Source: an uncultured Gemmatimonadota bacterium
Lineage (GTDB): Bacteria > Gemmatimonadota > Gemmatimonadetes > Gemmatimonadales > Gemmatimonadaceae
DNA: 64,000 nucleotides
Assembly (NCBI GenBank): GCA_903882745.1
Contig: CAIRYG010000011.1
Span: 558,001-622,000, forward strand
Direction of reading: 5' to 3'
In this document: positions 4,252-58,689 of the stretch, piece by piece
Layout of the letters: each line of letters starts with the position of its first letter
Position numbering within the stretch: the first letter of the stretch is position 1
Made by a program: the position numbers and the translations under genes
Notes under the pieces: model-generated
The model's input: the letters and a program-made list of their open reading frames with translations, nothing else
Database searches by the model: none
What the model was told of the DNA's origin: nothing

Positions 4252-5775
4252 ATGAAACTCGTCGAATGCGTTCCGAACTTCTCCGAGGGGCGTCGCCCCG
4301 AGGTCATCGCCGCCATCACGAGCGCCATCGCGAGCGTCGAGGGCGTGGTCATCCTCGATACGTCGAGCGATCCCAGCCATAACCGCACCGTCGTCACCTT
4401 CGTGGCGCCCGCCAACGGCGCGGTGCAGGCCGCCTTCAACGGCATCGCTAAGGCCCGCGACCTGATCGACCTCACCACCCACCAAGGCGAACACCCCCGC
4501 ATCGGCGCCACCGACGTCTGCCCCTTCATTCCGCTCGAAGGGGCCACAATGGACGACTGCATCGCCCTCGCCCGCGAGCTCGGCGCCAAAGTCGGCACCG
4601 AACTGGGCATCCCCGTCTTTCTCTACGAAAAAGCTGCCGCCCGCCCTGATCGCGAGAACCTCGCTGATATCCGCCGCGGCGAGTTCGAGCTGGCGCGCAC
4701 TGACATCGGCACCAATCCCGCCCGCGTTCCCGACTTCGGCCCCAACGCCATTCACCCGACCGCCGGCGCCACCGTCATCGGCGCTCGCCCCTTCCTCGTT
4801 GCCTACAACGTCTACCTCGGCGGCGCCGAGAATGTGAACGTCGCCAAAGAGGTCGCCAAAGCCGTTCGCGGCTCCAGCGGCGGACTCCGCTACGTGAAGG
4901 GTCTGGGCCTCGAAGTCGACGGCCAAGCCCAAGTCTCCATGAATCTTCTCGACACCGACAAAACCCCGCTCTACCGCGCCTACGACATGGTGCGCATGGA
5001 AGCTGAGGCCCGCGGTGTCACCCCGACGTGGAGCGAGCTGGTCGGCCTCGTCCCCGAAAAAGTCCTCTTCGAAACCGCCGCCCGCCACATCCGCCTCCCC
5101 AACTTCTCCACCGCCATGGTCCTCGAGCACAAAGTGCGCGCGGCACTCGGCGGCGGTGAATCGCTCAGCGGCTTCGTCGCAAGCGTCGCGAGCAGCGCCC
5201 CGGTGCCCGGTGGTGGTTCCGTCAGCGCGCTCGCCGGCCAACTCGCCGCCGCCCTCGCACAGATGGTTGCGGGGCTCACGGTAGGCCGCAAAAAATACGC
5301 AGCCGTCGACGCCGAGATGAAGGAACTCGCCCTCACCGCCGTCACCCTCGGCAACCGCCTCTCCTCGCTGGTACAAGAGGACGCCGACGCCTACGCCCTG
5401 GTCAGCAACGCCTACAAGCTGCCCAAGGAGACGGCGGAACAAAACATGGCGCGCGAGGCGGCTATCCAAGCGGCGCTCATGACCGCGGCCGAAATCCCGC
5501 TCGAGACGGCCCGTGCCTGCGCGCAGGTCGCTGCTCTGGCCGTCACCTGCGCCCACAAGGGCAACAGCAACGCCGTCAGCGATGCCGGAGTCGCGGCATT
5601 GCTCGCCGAAGCCGCCTGCCGCGGCGCGGCGTACAATGTGCGCATCAATGTCGCCTCAATGGCCGATAAGGCCGCAGGCGAGCCGCTGAGCGCTGCCGCG
5701 GCTGCCCTGGTAGCCGACACGCACGCACTCGCCGAGCAGGCCACCGCAGCCGTTGAGGCCGCGATCGGCGCGTAG
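4252..5775 (+). CDS. ftcD: Bifunctional glutamate formimidoyltransferase / formimidotetrahydrofolate cyclodeaminase
   Basis: Transfers the formimino group of formiminoglutamate, from histidine breakdown, to tetrahydrofolate, then deaminates it to 5,10-methenyl-THF. The 507-residue protein has the transferase part first (VECVPNFSEGR at 4-14; catalytic-region HQGEHPRIGATD with His81). The cyclodeaminase part follows (PVPGGGSVSALAG near residue 317 and an alanine-rich helical C-terminus). The ATG at 4252 lies 13 bp after the corrected stop of the phosphatase gene and gives the family's canonical N-terminus. It converges on map with a single-base gap and no visible terminator. No other hut genes are nearby. 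Confidence 0.93.
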   Translation: MKLVECVPNFSEGRRPEVIAAITSAIASVEGVVILDTSSDPSHNRTVVTFVAPANGAVQAAFNGIAKARDLIDLTTHQGEHPRIGATDVCPFIPLEGATMDDCIALARELGAKVGTELGIPVFLYEKAAARPDRENLADIRRGEFELARTDIGTNPARVPDFGPNAIHPTAGATVIGARPFLVAYNVYLGGAENVNVAKEVAKAVRGSSGGLRYVKGLGLEVDGQAQVSMNLLDTDKTPLYRAYDMVRMEAEARGVTPTWSELVGLVPEKVLFETAARHIRLPNFSTAMVLEHKVRAALGGGESLSGFVASVASSAPVPGGGSVSALAGQLAAALAQMVAGLTVGRKKYAAVDAEMKELALTAVTLGNRLSSLVQEDADAYALVSNAYKLPKETAEQNMAREAAIQAALMTAAEIPLETARACAQVAALAVTCAHKGNSNAVSDAGVAALLAEAACRGAAYNVRINVASMADKAAGEPLSAAAAALVADTHALAEQATAAVEAAIGA

Positions 5776-5776
5776 C

Positions 5777-6529
5777 CTACAGCCGGGTGAGAACCACCGG
5801 CCCATCCTCAGTCACCGCCACGGTGTGCTCGAAGTGCGCCGAGTTCTTGCCGTCGGCGGTCACTACGGTCCACTTGTCGCCCAAGGTGCGCGTCTTCTCG
5901 GTGCCAATGTTGACCATCGGCTCAATCGCGATCGTCAGCCCCGCCACCAAGCGCATGCCACGCTTCGGCTTGCCATGGTTCGGGATCTGCGGCTCCTCGT
6001 GCATCATGTGTCCCACACCATGCCCCACGAGATCGCGCACGACCGTGAATCCACCGGCCTTCACGACAGACTCCACCGCGTGGCCGATGTCCCCAACATG
6101 ATTCCCGATCACCGCGGCCTGCATGCCGGCCACGAGCGATGCCTCGGTGACATCCAAGAGGCGCTGCGTCTCAGCATCAATCGGCCCAACAGGATACGTC
6201 CGCGCGGAATCGGTATGTAAGCCGCCGAAAAACACCCCGATGTCCACCGAGATGATATCCCCGTCCCGAAGAATCTTCTTCTTGTTCGGGATGCCGTGCA
6301 CGATCTCTTCGTTCACCGACGCGCAAATGCTGGCCGGAAATCCGTAGAGTCCCTTAAAGCTCGGCACCGCGCCCTTCGAGCGAATAAAATCTTCGACCAC
6401 CTGATCGATATCCCAGGTGGACATCCCCGCAGCCACCGCATCCCGAGCGGCCAGATGAGCTTCGGCGAGAATCCGCCCGCCCACGGCCATCGTTTCAATT
6501 TCGCGCGCAGATTTGAGCTGGAGCATCAC
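5777..6529 (-). CDS. map: Methionine aminopeptidase, type I
   Basis: Removes the initiator methionine from nascent proteins. The 250-residue protein has the full type I metal site, counted from the GTG start: Asp96, Asp107, His170, Glu203 and Glu234, plus the accessory His78 and His177. Two starts are possible: GTG at 6529, overlapping the adk stop as GTGA, or the next codon ATG at 6526. Either way it is translationally coupled to adk. It ends the long ribosomal-protein/secY block; infA, rpmJ, rpsM and rpoA, which often follow map, are not in this window. Confidence 0.95.
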   Translation of the reverse strand: MMLQLKSAREIETMAVGGRILAEAHLAARDAVAAGMSTWDIDQVVEDFIRSKGAVPSFKGLYGFPASICASVNEEIVHGIPNKKKILRDGDIISVDIGVFFGGLHTDSARTYPVGPIDAETQRLLDVTEASLVAGMQAAVIGNHVGDIGHAVESVVKAGGFTVVRDLVGHGVGHMMHEEPQIPNHGKPKRGMRLVAGLTIAIEPMVNIGTEKTRTLGDKWTVVTADGKNSAHFEHTVAVTEDGPVVLTRL

Positions 6530-7176
6530 GAGCGGCCGAGGGCGCTCAGCGCCCGGGCCTGCACGTCTGCCAGCGAACCCACGGCGTCAATCGACACGAT
6601 GTGCGCGTGCTGATCGCGATACCACGCAATGACAGGCGCCGTCTGCTGCTGATAGACATGCAGACGATTGCGAATGGCGTCCGGCTCGTCGTCCTTGCGG
6701 CGCACCAACGTTCCCTTGGGATCCTTGGCGCACTCGGCGTGCAGCTCCCCCGGTGCACGCGCCGTGAACGGGGTCTGGCAGCAATCGCAGACCGTCCGGC
6801 CGCTCAGGCGACTCACCAACAGGTCGTCGGAGATCTCGAACAGCATCACCGCGTCGAGCGGGCGACCGAGTTCGCTCAGCACCGCCGCGAGTCCTTCCGC
6901 CTGCGGAACCGTGCGCACGACTCCGTCGAGGACAACGCCCTTGGCCTGTTCCGGCGCCTTCAGCGCCTCCTTCATCATCCCGAGGATCACGGCATCAGGA
7001 ACAAGGTCGCCCCTGTCCATGAAGCCCTTCGCCTCGAGGCCGAGTGGGGTCCCAGCCTTGACCGCAGCACGGAGCACATCCCCCGTAGCGATCTTGGGGA
7101 CGCCAAGAGATGCGGCAATCCGCTCTCCCTGCGTCCCCTTGCCGGCGCCCGGTGGTCCGAGCAGCACGACGATCAT
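6526..7176 (-). CDS. adk: Adenylate kinase with an atypical DGVVR motif
   Basis: Converts ATP + AMP to 2 ADP. The P-loop GPPGAGKGT is at 7-15. The LID domain is the long type with Cys130, Cys133, Cys149 and Asp152 spaced as a structural zinc site. The 216-residue length is normal. The usually invariant DGFPR signature reads DGVVR (84-88): Phe and Pro are both replaced by Val while the AMP/ATP-binding arginine is kept. It lies between secY and map, the common order, with a 4-bp overlap into map. Identification is firm; the motif change is unusual. Confidence 0.95.
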   Translation of the reverse strand: MIVVLLGPPGAGKGTQGERIAASLGVPKIATGDVLRAAVKAGTPLGLEAKGFMDRGDLVPDAVILGMMKEALKAPEQAKGVVLDGVVRTVPQAEGLAAVLSELGRPLDAVMLFEISDDLLVSRLSGRTVCDCCQTPFTARAPGELHAECAKDPKGTLVRRKDDEPDAIRNRLHVYQQQTAPVIAWYRDQHAHIVSIDAVGSLADVQARALSALGRS

Positions 7177-39928: not shown

Positions 39929-40534
39929 ATGAAACGACTTCTGATTCCCTTCGCCGCGGCACTCCTTGCCGCCGCATCCGGCACCTCCGCTCTTTCTGTC
40001 TCGCAGGCCAAGACCGTGGCGGCCGAAGCACAGGCCAAAGCGAAAGTGGTCCACGACAGCCTCGAGCGAATCGCCGCGGACTCCACAAAGCGCGCCGCTG
40101 ACGCCAAGCACGTGGCTGACAGCACGGCGACCGACAGCCTGATGTCGGCCACACCGGCTGCCGCACCGGCTGCACCGCCGGCTGCTGCACCCGCGCCAGC
40201 AAATAAGAAGACCGCCGCCCCCGACGCCAAGCACCCGGCCCCGGACGCGAAGCACCCGGCCCCGGACGCGAAGCGCCCGGCACCTGGCCTGCTCGCCGGC
40301 CCACTGCAGACTGGCGATGCCGTGCTCCCCAGTGGCCGGCTGTCAAAGATTTTCGCGAACATGCCAGCAAAGGATGCCGCCAAAGTTCTCGCGCACCTCG
40401 ATGATGCCGATGTCTCGCGGATCCTAGGGGCGGTCACCGACAAGCGCGCGGCCGAGATCCTCGCGCTCCTGCCATCGGAGCGGGCGGCGGCCATCAGTAA
40501 GACGGCCCTCAAGTCGCCCGCAGGCGCCAAGTGA
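39929..40534 (+). CDS. MotE/YlxF-like exported protein with an MgtE-N-type domain
   Basis: 201 residues: signal peptide (about 1-24), a coiled part (SVSQAKTVAAEAQAKAKVVHDSLERIAADS), an Ala/Pro stretch and a threefold APDAKHP repeat. The C-terminal domain LSKIFANMPAKDAAKVLAHLDDADVSRILGAVTDKRAAEILALLPSERAAAI matches the MgtE N-terminal/MotE fold. Genes of this type (ylxF, motE) are known between fliJ and fliK. Probable periplasmic partner of rod or stator parts. Confidence 0.75.
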   Translation: MKRLLIPFAAALLAAASGTSALSVSQAKTVAAEAQAKAKVVHDSLERIAADSTKRAADAKHVADSTATDSLMSATPAAAPAAPPAAAPAPANKKTAAPDAKHPAPDAKHPAPDAKRPAPGLLAGPLQTGDAVLPSGRLSKIFANMPAKDAAKVLAHLDDADVSRILGAVTDKRAAEILALLPSERAAAISKTALKSPAGAK

Positions 40535-42078
40535 ACAGCATTCCGTCGTTCGTCCCGGTCAACGCGCCGGCAGCGTCGACGGCAGCGCCGACGGCTGATG
40601 CCTTCAGCGATGCGGTGAACGGCGGAACCTCGTCGAGCGCGTTCGCGGGAGCGCTGGATCGCGCGACGCGCGTTCGCGAGAGCCACGACCTTGACGCAGC
40701 GAGCGCCGAGAAGGCTGAGAAGAAGCGCCGCGAGAAGGAAGACGCGGAGCGTCCGACCGCTGATAGTTCCGGCGCAACCGGAGAGACAAGCTCCGGCACG
40801 AGCGCCCTGCGCGCCTTGCTGGCCCGCGCCTCACTGGAGTCATCGGGCGCCACCACGCGTGTCGATGCACAGCTTACCGATCGTGCCGCGCGTGAAGCAG
40901 CCGGCAGTGATCCCTCGACAGTCTTTCGCGACCCTGCCCTCTTGCAGCCGGAGTTCCGGAGCAAGGTGGAGCGGGTCGTGCAGCGCATGAAGGGGGAAAC
41001 GGGCGCCGATGTCTCGATCCGAGAAACCTGGCGGAGTCAGACGCGCCAGAATGCACTCTACGATCAGGGACGCTCCACGAGCGGCCCCGTCGTGACCTGG
41101 ACGCAGAACTCCCGTCATTCCTCTGGATTGGCCGCAGACCTCGTGGTGTCGGGCGGCAGTTCCAGCCAATACGCGGCACTCCAGCAGATTGCGAACGAAG
41201 AAGGACTTCGGACGCTAGGCGCGAAGGATCCGGGTCATGTCGAGCTGAATCTTGGCGCCCTCCAGCAACAGACCGGTGCCTCGGTACTCGGCGCCGAGAT
41301 CAGCCTCGCGACGCCGGGACAGCAGGGGGCGCTCGCGCAGGGGGCACAGGGCGCGCAACTGGCGCAGGTTGCGGCGGTGGCACAAGTCGCGCAGGTCGCA
41401 GAAGTTGCGCAGGTCGCCGGCGTCGCTGCTCCCGGCGTTTCTACTCCAGGGGGCGCTGCTCCACGTGGCGCGTCAAAGTCTGACGCCACGGCGGCAGCAA
41501 CTGGCGCTGGGGCATCCGTGCGGTCGGCCAAGTCGTCGCGCTCATCTCGCTCGTCCTCAGAGTCACGGGACGACAGCGGGAGTAACGGGAACAGTGGCAA
41601 TGGGGCTCGGACGCCGCAGGCGATTGCGCTCTCGAGCCTTGGAAGCCCGGTGAACACGGGTGGTGTGAGCGCGCCGCGTTTCGTGGCGCCGCTGCCCAGC
41701 GATGCCGCCGCCCGTGTGGATCGCGTCTTGGCGCTGCAGGATGCCCGGGCCGCACAACCGATGAATCAAATGTTGCTCCGCGTCGACAACGGCGCTGGTG
41801 GCGAGGACCGGATTCGCATTGGAACGATGGGCGCGCGCGTTGGCGCGACGATCGACCTCGCGGATCCCGCACTCGCGGCCCAGATCGGCCTCCGGGCTTC
41901 CGAGCTCGGCAAGACGCTGGCCGCACGTGGACTCTCCATGGATGCCCTCCGTGTGCGCGGCAACAGCGGACCCGCTTCGACTTCCAACGATCTCCTTAAC
42001 GCGCTGATCGCCAATGGCGACCTCGCGCCTACTCCTTCCCGTCGTCGCACCGGCGACACCACCGGACATCAGCCATGA
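40531..42078 (+). CDS. fliK: FliK-type hook-length protein with an internal M15-like peptidase domain
   Basis: 515 residues, GTG start overlapping the previous stop. C-terminal 411-476 resembles the FliK hook-length domain (LLRVDNGAGGEDRIRIGTMG ... LGKTLAARGLSMDALRV), and the gene sits just before flgD as fliK does. Residues 141-240 look like an M15/LAS peptidase: RETWRSQTRQNALYDQGRS (163-181), GPVVTWTQNSRHSSGLAADL (185-204) with zinc-ligand pattern H196/D203, and GHVEL with H236 and E238. Between them lies an AQVAQV-type repeat (269-300) and a Ser/Arg-rich linker. The peptidase part is the L-Ala-D-Glu endopeptidase type that cuts peptidoglycan peptides. Confidence 0.8.
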   Translation: MNSIPSFVPVNAPAASTAAPTADAFSDAVNGGTSSSAFAGALDRATRVRESHDLDAASAEKAEKKRREKEDAERPTADSSGATGETSSGTSALRALLARASLESSGATTRVDAQLTDRAAREAAGSDPSTVFRDPALLQPEFRSKVERVVQRMKGETGADVSIRETWRSQTRQNALYDQGRSTSGPVVTWTQNSRHSSGLAADLVVSGGSSSQYAALQQIANEEGLRTLGAKDPGHVELNLGALQQQTGASVLGAEISLATPGQQGALAQGAQGAQLAQVAAVAQVAQVAEVAQVAGVAAPGVSTPGGAAPRGASKSDATAAATGAGASVRSAKSSRSSRSSSESRDDSGSNGNSGNGARTPQAIALSSLGSPVNTGGVSAPRFVAPLPSDAAARVDRVLALQDARAAQPMNQMLLRVDNGAGGEDRIRIGTMGARVGATIDLADPALAAQIGLRASELGKTLAARGLSMDALRVRGNSGPASTSNDLLNALIANGDLAPTPSRRRTGDTTGHQP

Positions 42079-42761
42079 CCGTTCCTTCGATCGGCAGCAC
42101 CGCGGCGGCCAGCGGCGCGACAACGAGCAGCGCCACATCCAAAGGCATGCTGGGCAAGGACGACTTTATGAAGTTGCTCGTTGCCCAAATGCAGCACCAG
42201 GATCCCATGAACCCGAGCGACAGCTCGCAGATGGCGGCGCAGTTGGCACAGTTCTCGTCGCTCGAGCAGCTCACCAACATCTCGCAGCAGATGGCCTCGC
42301 AGGCGGCCGACAGCGCGACGCTCGTGAATACCGTCAACAACTCGTCGGCCATCGGGCTGCTCGGCAAAACCGTGTCCGTACTCGACGACACCGTTCAGGT
42401 GGGTGGCACCTCGCCAACGCGTACTGCCTCGACAACCGTCGGCGCGGGCGGCGGTGACTTCACCGTTCGCCTCGAAGACGCAAACGGCTTCACGGTTGCG
42501 ACCAACCATATGGGGCGTGTCTCCGGCGGACAGCAGAACGTGTCGCTCGATTCGCTCACCAGCGGACTCCCCGAGGGCAACTACAAGGTGGTGTTCGACG
42601 TGACCAATGGCGTCGGGAGCACGCGGACCATTGCGCACCCGACCTCGACGGTCGCAGCGCATGTCGACGGCATCGGCTTTGGCACGAATGGTGCAGTGGT
42701 GACGAGCGGCTCCAAGAAGTACACGATCGGGCAGGTTCTGTCCGTCAACGCGACCAACTAA
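42075..42761 (+). CDS. flgD: Hook-cap / hook assembly protein FlgD
   Basis: Scaffold that caps the hook during growth. 228 residues; LGKDDFMKLLVAQMQHQDPMNPSDSSQMAAQLAQFSSLEQLTNI is the family N-terminal signature, followed by a FlgD Ig-like/Tudor region. Overlaps fliK by 4 bp and precedes flgE by 18 bp. Confidence 0.96.
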   Translation: MTVPSIGSTAAASGATTSSATSKGMLGKDDFMKLLVAQMQHQDPMNPSDSSQMAAQLAQFSSLEQLTNISQQMASQAADSATLVNTVNNSSAIGLLGKTVSVLDDTVQVGGTSPTRTASTTVGAGGGDFTVRLEDANGFTVATNHMGRVSGGQQNVSLDSLTSGLPEGNYKVVFDVTNGVGSTRTIAHPTSTVAAHVDGIGFGTNGAVVTSGSKKYTIGQVLSVNATN

Positions 42762-46270: not shown

Positions 46271-47566
46271 ATGACTGTTTCGTCGTTTATCGGCGTCCTA
46301 GGGACGCTGGGGTTGGTTCTCGGGTTGCTCCTCGTCACGCTCCGGCTGCTCAAGCGGCTGTCGGTCACGACGGCAACAGGGCTCGCCCCGCTCCCGCTCC
46401 GTGTTGAACAGCGGCTAGCCGTTGGGCCTCGTCAGGGAATCGCGATCGTCCGTATTGGAACGCGCGTGGTCGCCGTGTCCACAGGGGAAGGCGGCGTCCG
46501 TCGCATCGCCGATGTCACGGATGACGCCGAGGCGCTCAACCCGACCACGGAAACTGACGGTTCTGAGCCGATCAACACGATGGGCGCCGGAGATCCCACC
46601 GCCCCCACCGGCTTCGGCAATATCCTCCGCACGGCCATCAAGCGCTCGCTGCCGCTCGTGTTCGCACTCGCCTGCGCGCTCCCCTCCATGGGCGCCCAGG
46701 CCACCAAGGCGCCAGCAACGGCGCCGGCAACGGCGCCGGCAACGGCCCCGGCAAAGGCGGCGGCGAATGCTGCAGCGAAAACCGCCACCAAGGCTCCTGC
46801 CGGCAAGGGAGCTGCCAAGCCTGCGACGCCTATCGTGCAGCCGGTCGTGCAGCCGACGGCCGGCCGCGCCGACACCATGATCACCAAGCTCGCCCCAAAA
46901 ATCGACCTGCGCGTCGGCGGCGACAACGCCTCCGGACTCCGCCTGTCGGGTACGGTCGGTGTGATCGTGCTGATGGGGCTGCTCACCTTACTCCCCACGC
47001 TGATCCTCATGATGACGGGCTTCACCCGCATCATGATTGTACTGAGCTTCCTCAAGCAGGCGATCGGCGCCCAAAGCGCACCGCCCACACAGCTCGTCGC
47101 AGGGCTCGCGATGTTGCTCACGGGGTTCGTCATGGCACCGACGCTCACCGAGGTGAACAAGACCGCGCTCGAACCGTGGATGGATGGCAAGATCGAACAG
47201 GCACAGATGCTCAGCGAGGGCGTGAAGCCCTTTCGTGCGTTTATGCTCCGCCAAGTGCGCTCCGCAGACTTGGCGACCTACATGAAGATCAGCCGTCAGG
47301 CGCCAGTCGCGACCGTCCAGGACGTGCCGCTGATCGTCCTGACGTCGGCGTTCGTCACGAGTGAGCTCCGGACCTCCTTTCAGATTGGCTTCGCACTCTT
47401 CCTGCCGTTTATCGTCATCGATATTGTCGTCGCCGCCGTGCTCATGTCGATGGGTATGATGATGGTGCCGCCGGCCATGATCGCCCTGCCCTTCAAGCTG
47501 TTGCTCTTTGTGCTCGTGGACGGGTGGTCGCTGGTGATTCAGGGCCTCGTGCAGAGCTTCAACTAA
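46271..47566 (+). CDS. fliP: FliO-FliP fusion protein
   Basis: 431 residues in one frame. Residues 1-100 look like FliO: one N-terminal membrane segment (5-26) then a small cytoplasmic domain (LPLRVEQRLAVGPRQGIAIVRIGTRVVAVSTGEGG). Residues 119-144 form a Sec-type signal peptide (LRTAIKRSLPLVFALACALPSMGAQA) with an AxA cleavage site, as in stand-alone FliP. An Ala/Pro repeat follows and then complete FliP (VIVLMGLLTLLPTLILMMTGFTRIMIVLSFLKQAIGAQSAPP to the C-terminus). No stop or ribosome binding site separates the parts; an ATG at 46580 could start FliP alone but has no ribosome binding site. Confidence 0.9.
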   Translation: MTVSSFIGVLGTLGLVLGLLLVTLRLLKRLSVTTATGLAPLPLRVEQRLAVGPRQGIAIVRIGTRVVAVSTGEGGVRRIADVTDDAEALNPTTETDGSEPINTMGAGDPTAPTGFGNILRTAIKRSLPLVFALACALPSMGAQATKAPATAPATAPATAPAKAAANAAAKTATKAPAGKGAAKPATPIVQPVVQPTAGRADTMITKLAPKIDLRVGGDNASGLRLSGTVGVIVLMGLLTLLPTLILMMTGFTRIMIVLSFLKQAIGAQSAPPTQLVAGLAMLLTGFVMAPTLTEVNKTALEPWMDGKIEQAQMLSEGVKPFRAFMLRQVRSADLATYMKISRQAPVATVQDVPLIVLTSAFVTSELRTSFQIGFALFLPFIVIDIVVAAVLMSMGMMMVPPAMIALPFKLLLFVLVDGWSLVIQGLVQSFN

Positions 47567-57308: not shown

Positions 57309-58363
57309 GCATGCGTCGTGCGCTTCCGTATTCGGCCCTCGTGCTCGGGCTGTTCGGCCTGGCCGGACGGTCGGCGGCCGCGCAGGATGCGCGCATCCGC
57401 GATCTCGTGCTCGCCGACGCCGCGCCGCCAACCCGTCTGATGGGCTACGGTCTGGTGACCGGCCTCAACGGCACGGGCGATCGCGTGACCGGCGGCAATG
57501 GCTCGCGCCAGACGGTGCAGTCCATCGTCAATCTCCTGCGTCGCTTCGACGTGGAAGTCCCCGCAGAAGTTCTGCGGACGCGTAACGTGGCCGCAGTCCT
57601 CGTGACCGCTGAAGTCTCGCCGTACCTGCGTCCTGGTGGACGGTTCGAAGTGCGCGTCTCCTCAGTGGGCGACGCGCAGTCGCTCCGCGGCGGCGTCCTC
57701 TGGATGACGCCCCTGGTCGCCGATGCCGGCGGACGTCCCATGGCCGGCGCGCAGGGCGCGCTGATCGTGAGCGGTGGCGAAACCCGTACCGTGGCCAATA
57801 CCGGGAGCCAGACGACCGCTCGCGTGCTCGACGGCGGCGTCCTCGAAGCCGAGATGCCGCGGCCGCGCGCCGCAGCCAATGACCGACTCTTTCTGAAAGA
57901 CCCCGACCTCAACACCGCGGTTCGCATCGCGGCCGTCATCGATTCGGCACTCGGCGCCCCCAAGCAGGCACTGGTCGAAGACCCGGGCCTCATTCGCCTC
58001 GTCCTCAAGGACACCGCGAATGGCTCGTCGGCCGCCCTCGCCTTCATTCGCGACTTACGGATTCGCGCGCCACGCACGTCCCGCGTGACCATCGACGCCC
58101 GCAGCGGAACGATTGTGGCTGGCGGCGACATCTCCATTGGTGAAGCCACGGTCAGCCACGGGGGACTCACCCTGAGCATCGGCGGCGGCAGCGGAACCGA
58201 CACCACAACCGTCGCCGGCGAAGTCCGGATGGCAGCGGGCGCCTCGGTACAGAAGGTGGCCTCTGCCCTCCGCGCACTGCAAGCGACGGCAACGGAAATC
58301 GCCGCGATCTTCGAAGCGCTCCGCGATGCCGGCGCGATCGCAGCCGAGGTGATTGTCCGATGA
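57305..58363 (+). CDS. flgI: P-ring protein FlgI
   Basis: Periplasmic ring around the rod. 352 residues: signal peptide ending SAAAQ (about residue 26), then RIRDLVLADAAPPTRLMGYGLVTGLNGTGDR and later VTIDARSGTIVAGGDISIGEATVSHGGLTLSI. GTG 57305 or ATG 57311 may start it. Overlaps flgH and flgJ by 4 bp. Confidence 0.96.
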   Translation: MSMRRALPYSALVLGLFGLAGRSAAAQDARIRDLVLADAAPPTRLMGYGLVTGLNGTGDRVTGGNGSRQTVQSIVNLLRRFDVEVPAEVLRTRNVAAVLVTAEVSPYLRPGGRFEVRVSSVGDAQSLRGGVLWMTPLVADAGGRPMAGAQGALIVSGGETRTVANTGSQTTARVLDGGVLEAEMPRPRAAANDRLFLKDPDLNTAVRIAAVIDSALGAPKQALVEDPGLIRLVLKDTANGSSAALAFIRDLRIRAPRTSRVTIDARSGTIVAGGDISIGEATVSHGGLTLSIGGGSGTDTTTVAGEVRMAAGASVQKVASALRALQATATEIAAIFEALRDAGAIAAEVIVR

Positions 58364-58689
58364 TTCGCGCCACGTCGACCACAGGCACCACTCCGCCCGT
58401 CGATCCGCAGGCCAAGGCGATCGCACGACTGACAAAGACCGCCAAGCAGTTCGAAGGCGTCTTCGTCCAGCAACTCTTCAAGGCGATGCGTGACACGGTG
58501 CCCCAGGACGGACTCACGTCCGGTGGCGCCGGCGAAGACATGTTCACTGGCATGCTCGACCAGAACCTGTCGGATAAGCTCCCCCAGCAGTGGAAGCACG
58601 GCCCCGCCGAGGCAATGGTCGCACACTTCCGCGCCCAAGTCACCGCACAGGCCGACAGCTCGCCGACTCCCGTGGATTTTCGCCGATGA
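58360..58689 (+). CDS. flgJ: Rod-binding protein FlgJ, N-terminal domain only
   Basis: Rod-cap scaffold. 109 residues: RLTKTAKQFEGVFVQQLFKAMRDTV ... GAGEDMFTGMLDQNLSDKL is the rod-binding domain. It lacks the muramidase domain that follows in beta/gamma-proteobacterial FlgJ, so wall opening must be done by another enzyme; the M15-like part of the FliK protein is a candidate. Confidence 0.93.
   Translation: MIRATSTTGTTPPVDPQAKAIARLTKTAKQFEGVFVQQLFKAMRDTVPQDGLTSGGAGEDMFTGMLDQNLSDKLPQQWKHGPAEAMVAHFRAQVTAQADSSPTPVDFRR

Follow-up and report, generated by a model that had tools for sequence, protein, structure and literature searches.

A predicted LAS-type (M15) peptidase domain within the flagellar hook-length protein FliK of Gemmatimonadota

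The flagellar hook-length protein FliK is usually viewed as a non-enzymatic ruler and switch. A flagellar locus in the window, the whole 64,000-nucleotide stretch of DNA from an uncultured Gemmatimonadota bacterium that was analysed here, raises the question of whether this protein may also open the cell wall for the growing rod. Flagella with a single-domain FlgJ normally need a separate, dedicated enzyme to cross the peptidoglycan (PMC8517470). A preliminary description had placed an M15-like peptidoglycan peptidase inside the FliK-type protein at 40951-41250 (residues 141-240), and the motif positions it gave are exact. The gene lies in the following setting:

39929..40534, + strand: motE/ylxF-like gene, upstream of fliK (Pfam MgtE_N 3.9e-7)
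40531..42078, + strand: fliK, an ORF of 515 aa with a GTG start, between the motE-like and flgD genes (orthologue alignment)
42075..42761, + strand: flgD, hook cap, overlapping the end of fliK (Pfam FlgD 4.9e-24)

These genes are surrounded by a large flagellar cluster that includes P- and L-ring genes. The position of fliK among fliI-fliJ-motE and flgD-flgE is found in the window and in loci of three families, f1, f4 and f5; in the loci compared, fliI, motE and the M15-bearing fliK stand together, and flgD and flgE come next unless the contig ends first. Elsewhere in the window, a single ORF (46271-47566) encodes both FliO (27-123) and FliP (234-426). An error of frame, assembly or annotation that fused two genes has a negligible probability: the same open frame, free of internal stops, occurs in 63 genomes, and these open homologues refute an assembly or frame artefact.

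The protein comprises a disordered N-terminal part, the M15 domain, a long low-complexity linker and a C-terminal switch domain, and inspection by eye revealed no Sec-type signal at its N-terminus. A model of the full-length protein is of low confidence (pLDDT 46) and can be interpreted only at the M15 core and the C-terminal strands. Just after the M15 domain the linker contains a VAxVAxVAx repeat (41358-41421, residues ~277-297), which is kept in most orthologues and is predicted at low confidence to form a helix (H273-297); the repeat might be a ruler element. The identity of the carrier protein depends on its C-terminal part:

41692..41967, + strand: FliK C-terminal (switch) domain, residues 388-479 (Flg_hook in orthologues, C-terminal profile, predicted secondary structure)

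The Flg_hook family (PF02120) gave no significant match to the window protein alone, and the proposed FliK-like C-terminus is instead borne out through its orthologues, 18 of 20 of which match the family at E <= 0.1 (best 1.1e-9). The A3 profile, built from the C-terminal domain, also finds FliKs that lack M15, in family f2 at domain E-values of 3.6e-16 to 6.5e-11 and in f11, which belongs to another, basal class, at 5.3e-5; Flg_hook itself matches M15-less f2 FliKs at 7.1e-12 and 4e-7. The secondary structure is predicted, at low confidence, to run strand-strand-strand-helix-strand. Judged from these sequence comparisons, the window protein has a true FliK switch domain at its C-terminus. The protein shares with FliK of Salmonella and other flagella this switch domain, the operon place before flgD and a disordered ruler part, and differs from described FliKs, which are not known to have an enzyme domain, by carrying one.

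40924..41259, + strand: LAS/M15 metallopeptidase domain, residues ~132-243 (PHROG endolysins, PDB profile matches, AlphaFold2 and PDB fold matches, identity, dN/dS)

Three motifs mark this domain within the ORF, namely RSQTRQNALYDQGRS (168-182), RHSSGLAAD (195-203) and DPGHVEL (233-239). When profiles were compared, two endolysin families matched the whole FliK (phrog_6523 at 9.9e-16 and phrog_2649 at 5.8e-12) and all 20 orthologous domains examined, and a 20-sequence profile of the domain matched the solved structures of Ply500 (2vo9, 1.9e-12) and LysB4 (6akv, 2.9e-12). The curated Pfam models fared less well than the PHROG and PDB profiles, since the domain alone scored below the cut-offs for both VanY (3.7e-4, 20.7 bits against 25) and Peptidase_M15_3 (18.5 bits against 23.2). 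A curated Pfam cut-off is a database convention and not a biological feature, and these marginal scores may explain why automatic annotation would miss the domain.

Structure prediction, the other check proposed, gave a concordant result. An AlphaFold2 model of the window domain, built with 31 relatives, has a mean pLDDT of 84.1, with means of 86-94 for the ten-residue blocks containing H196, D203, D233 and H236, and its predicted fold is that of the LAS enzymes. These occupy the top PDB fold matches, comprising 2vo9 (Foldseek 6.2e-07), 8q2g, 6akv, LdcB, ChiX and VanXY; Hedgehog domains rank after them, as expected for a LAS fold. Structural Z scores were 10.2-10.8 against 8q2g (Z 10.8, rmsd 3.0, 103 aligned), 2vo9 (10.7, 3.7, 112), 5opz (10.5, 2.5, 102) and 6akv. 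A chance motif is ruled out by the PHROG, PDB profile and fold matches, and the identity of the domain as a LAS/M15 enzyme embedded in FliK, as first proposed, is strongly supported. The residues expected at its active site are the following, compared across 30 FliK domains of families f1, f4 and f5 and 26 phage sequences:

41116..41118, + strand: H196, expected zinc ligand (identical in 30/30 FliK and 26/26 phage sequences)
41137..41139, + strand: D203, expected zinc ligand of the HxxxxxxD motif (identical in 30/30 FliK and 26/26 phage sequences)
41227..41229, + strand: D233, expected catalytic acid of the DxxH motif (30/30 FliK; 25 phage, one gap)
41236..41238, + strand: H236, expected third zinc ligand (30/30 FliK; 22 phage, four alignment gaps)

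Both the HxxxxxxD pair and the [DE]xxH motif, which supplies the catalytic acid and the third zinc ligand, are thus present in every FliK domain compared. The original assignment of the HxxxxxxD pair and the last histidine agrees with the expected ligands, but the glutamate of GHVEL does not have the role given to it; by the [DE]xxH rule, the catalytic acid is likely to be D233 of DPGH instead of E238. Five further residues (R168, Q173, G180, R181 and W190) are also identical in all 30 FliK domains and nearly so in the phage enzymes. No other part of FliK is as well conserved as the M15 domain, whose mean pairwise identity is 0.56; the C-terminal domain reaches 0.36, and the linkers and other parts 0.15-0.19. 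In four pairs the dN/dS of the M15 domain was 0.07-0.19, with values of up to 0.15-0.64 in linkers; in these pairs the domain evolves under purifying selection.

The invariant residues, the high conservation and the low dN/dS together argue, at the sequence level, for a retained catalytic function. It could nevertheless be supposed that FliK keeps the LAS fold without catalysis, either to bind peptidoglycan or as a folded stop that times the ruler. Rulers are subject to constraints of length and folding, and the Hedgehog proteins among the structural neighbours reuse a LAS-like fold without known hydrolysis. Under purely structural reuse some residues should have come under weaker constraint, so that the identity of all four metal and catalytic residues and of the five additional positions in 30/30 FliKs counts against this explanation, which we consider quite improbable.

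The domain resembles Ply500 (2vo9), LysB4 (6akv), LysECD7 (8q2g) and Serratia ChiX (5opz) in its LAS fold and HxxxxxxD...DxxH site, and has the signature RSxxxQxxLYxQGRxxxGxxVT in common with them. Those proteins are stand-alone lysins or wall enzymes, whereas the FliK domain is embedded and has neither a Sec signal nor a wall-binding domain. Its nearest stand-alone relatives are phage endolysins and proteins of f6, a non-flagellated family. In a tree of M15 domains the FliK copies stand apart from nearly all phage enzymes, with a support of 33 and five outside sequences nested among them. The f6 proteins (L195, L196 and L197), from class-mates without FlgJ, are ~370-446 aa in open-frame length and carry an M15-like domain related to that of FliK, with DPGHVYLP at its end; some have a signal-peptide-like N-terminal stretch. 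The viral match closest to the FliK domain is an 809-aa ORF on a viral contig (L056, 913-3339) with a C-terminal M15 domain (VanY 9.1e-7).

The rod-cap gene of the window is the following:

58360..58689, + strand: flgJ, single-domain rod cap, 109 aa (Rod-binding 3.3e-13 only)

As had been stated, the window FlgJ contains no hydrolase domain; it matches Rod-binding only and so is not a dual-domain FlgJ, whatever the M15-bearing FliK works like. A hydrolase hidden in relatives is likewise ruled out for the FlgJ C-termini of 18 further f1 and f2 loci, none of which has one, and every FlgJ read in f1, f2 and f5 has a single domain. In f11, the three FlgJ proteins scanned end in an SLT transglycosylase domain (7.3e-30, 7.8e-31 and 2.1e-31), and SLT was recognised by sequence in a fourth; these loci, L151, L165, L170 and L174, encode Rod-binding followed by C-terminal SLT. 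The FliK peptidase is comparable with such dual-domain FlgJ proteins (GH73 in Salmonella, SLT in f11) in that a wall enzyme is fused to a flagellar export substrate. It differs in being a peptidase on the ruler rather than a glycosidase or transglycosylase on the rod cap. SltF of Rhodobacter and BB0259 of Borrelia, unlike an enzyme fused to FliK, are separate FlgJ-interacting proteins, and they supply the activity absent from a single-domain FlgJ (PMC8517470).

The distribution of the fusion was examined in 298 genomes spread evenly over Gemmatimonadota, with FlgJ as the marker of flagellated genomes. The FliK-type M15 domain is present in 63 of them, always at E < 1e-43, and eight further genomes have weaker M15 matches (best 5e-16). 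Among the 78 FlgJ-positive genomes it occurs in 54/55 of f1, 2/2 of f4 and 6/7 of f5. The f5 genome without it (G209) was rejected as a true exception, as its contig ends before fliK. In the f1 exception (G081), the flagellar cluster looks intact and the M15 domain of FliK is decayed, with the catalytic residues absent; its fliK (L181, reverse strand, ORF 4833-6554) is otherwise an open gene, a natural loss of the enzyme. Its FlgJ has not gained a hydrolase and is still single-domain. No FliK-M15 was found in the eight flagellated genomes of f2, where the FliKs inspected in five genomes lack the domain, or in the six genomes of f11. The contig scan for relatives used one query sequence and recovers close relatives only; a 98%-identical domain lies in a Gemmatimonadota MAG (L028). 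Three families of the class and most of the flagellated genomes sampled share the fusion, whose distribution largely replaces that of the FlgJ-linked SLT of the basal class. The suggestion that the wall hydrolase moved into the ruler is correct in that FlgJ lacks an enzyme and FliK has one, but the f11 transglycosylase is unrelated to the FliK peptidase, so that this would be a replacement and not a relocation.

Family f2 has neither FliK-M15 nor a FlgJ hydrolase, and among the ORFs of two f2 clusters, comparison with the window and inspection by eye brought no linked wall enzyme to notice. Together with the decayed domain of G081, this indicates that some relatives can do without the role: either another enzyme substitutes there, or the M15 domain is accessory. 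One explanation would therefore assign rod penetration to an unlinked general lytic enzyme, with the FliK peptidase as an active accessory that helps in some conditions only. The flagella of f2 and G081 manage without a functional-looking M15, and unlinked SLT genes occur in all 14 genomes tested, as do other unlinked wall enzymes in every genome tested. The window genome has one SLT gene, which is unlinked, and no GH73 gene, and no SLT match fell inside flagellar stretches. Unlinked SLT genes number 3-5 in f2 genomes (n=5-6) and 3 in G081; of four M15-bearing f1 genomes, three have 1-2 and one has 6. This sample is too small to weigh. Retention of M15 in 54/55 flagellated f1 genomes and the purifying selection in the pairs tested oppose an accessory role, and we regard it as rather unlikely.

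The peptidase might also be active for another purpose, with FliK released via the completed hook acting on neighbouring cells' peptidoglycan or on wall fragments that have been set free. The domain is of phage-endolysin type, FliK is secreted outside after the hook emerges (PMC13344023), and the flagella of f2 and G081 dispense with M15. We noticed neither a lysin wall-binding domain nor a neighbouring immunity gene, however, and the near-universal link with a single-domain FlgJ and the contrast with the FlgJ-SLT of f11 fit assembly better, so that an action outside the cell appears very doubtful.

The best explanation, which draws on the identity of the domain, the intact metal and catalytic residues, selection, operon place and distribution, is that FliK is a ruler and switch fused with an active LAS-type (M15) zinc endopeptidase that would open the peptidoglycan for the rod; we assign this reading a probability of about 55%. 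The steps that we infer run from export and zinc binding through activity and substrate to the role in rod passage. The flagellar type III apparatus would export FliK unfolded while the rod is still periplasmic, and the M15 domain, once in the periplasm close to the rod tip, would fold and bind zinc. It would cut the stem peptides of peptidoglycan, and by analogy with Ply500, its closest solved relative, the L-Ala-D-Glu bond is the most likely substrate. Such cuts near the rod tip would let the rod cross the wall, and once the hook is outside, later copies of FliK would be released harmlessly. Few FliK copies are made per flagellum, which may limit the activity. Secretion of FliK in Salmonella goes on throughout the building of rod and hook, with the periplasm as its destination as long as the rod is short, and a FliK-beta-lactamase fusion is also exported and becomes active there (PMC13344023). 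This timing and the active fusion suggest that an enzyme borne by FliK can arrive where and when it is needed.

The preliminary description did not recognise this architecture among described flagella, and we likewise found no description of a wall enzyme in FliK in the open-access literature; enzyme and flagellar protein are each known, and the fusion of both was not found described. It seems to us an even chance that in most flagellated members of the class the hook-length ruler is also the wall-opening enzyme, a phage-lysin-type peptidase having replaced the FlgJ-linked transglycosylase. Natural variants, comprising f2 without the domain, G081 with a decayed one and f11 with FlgJ-SLT, make the question of wall crossing directly testable. 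If the domain is active, FliK would be added to the carriers of flagellar wall-opening enzymes, here a peptidase in place of a glycan-cutting enzyme, and would provide a new place to look in bacteria with a single-domain FlgJ. One exported protein would then clear the path, measure and switch flagellar assembly.
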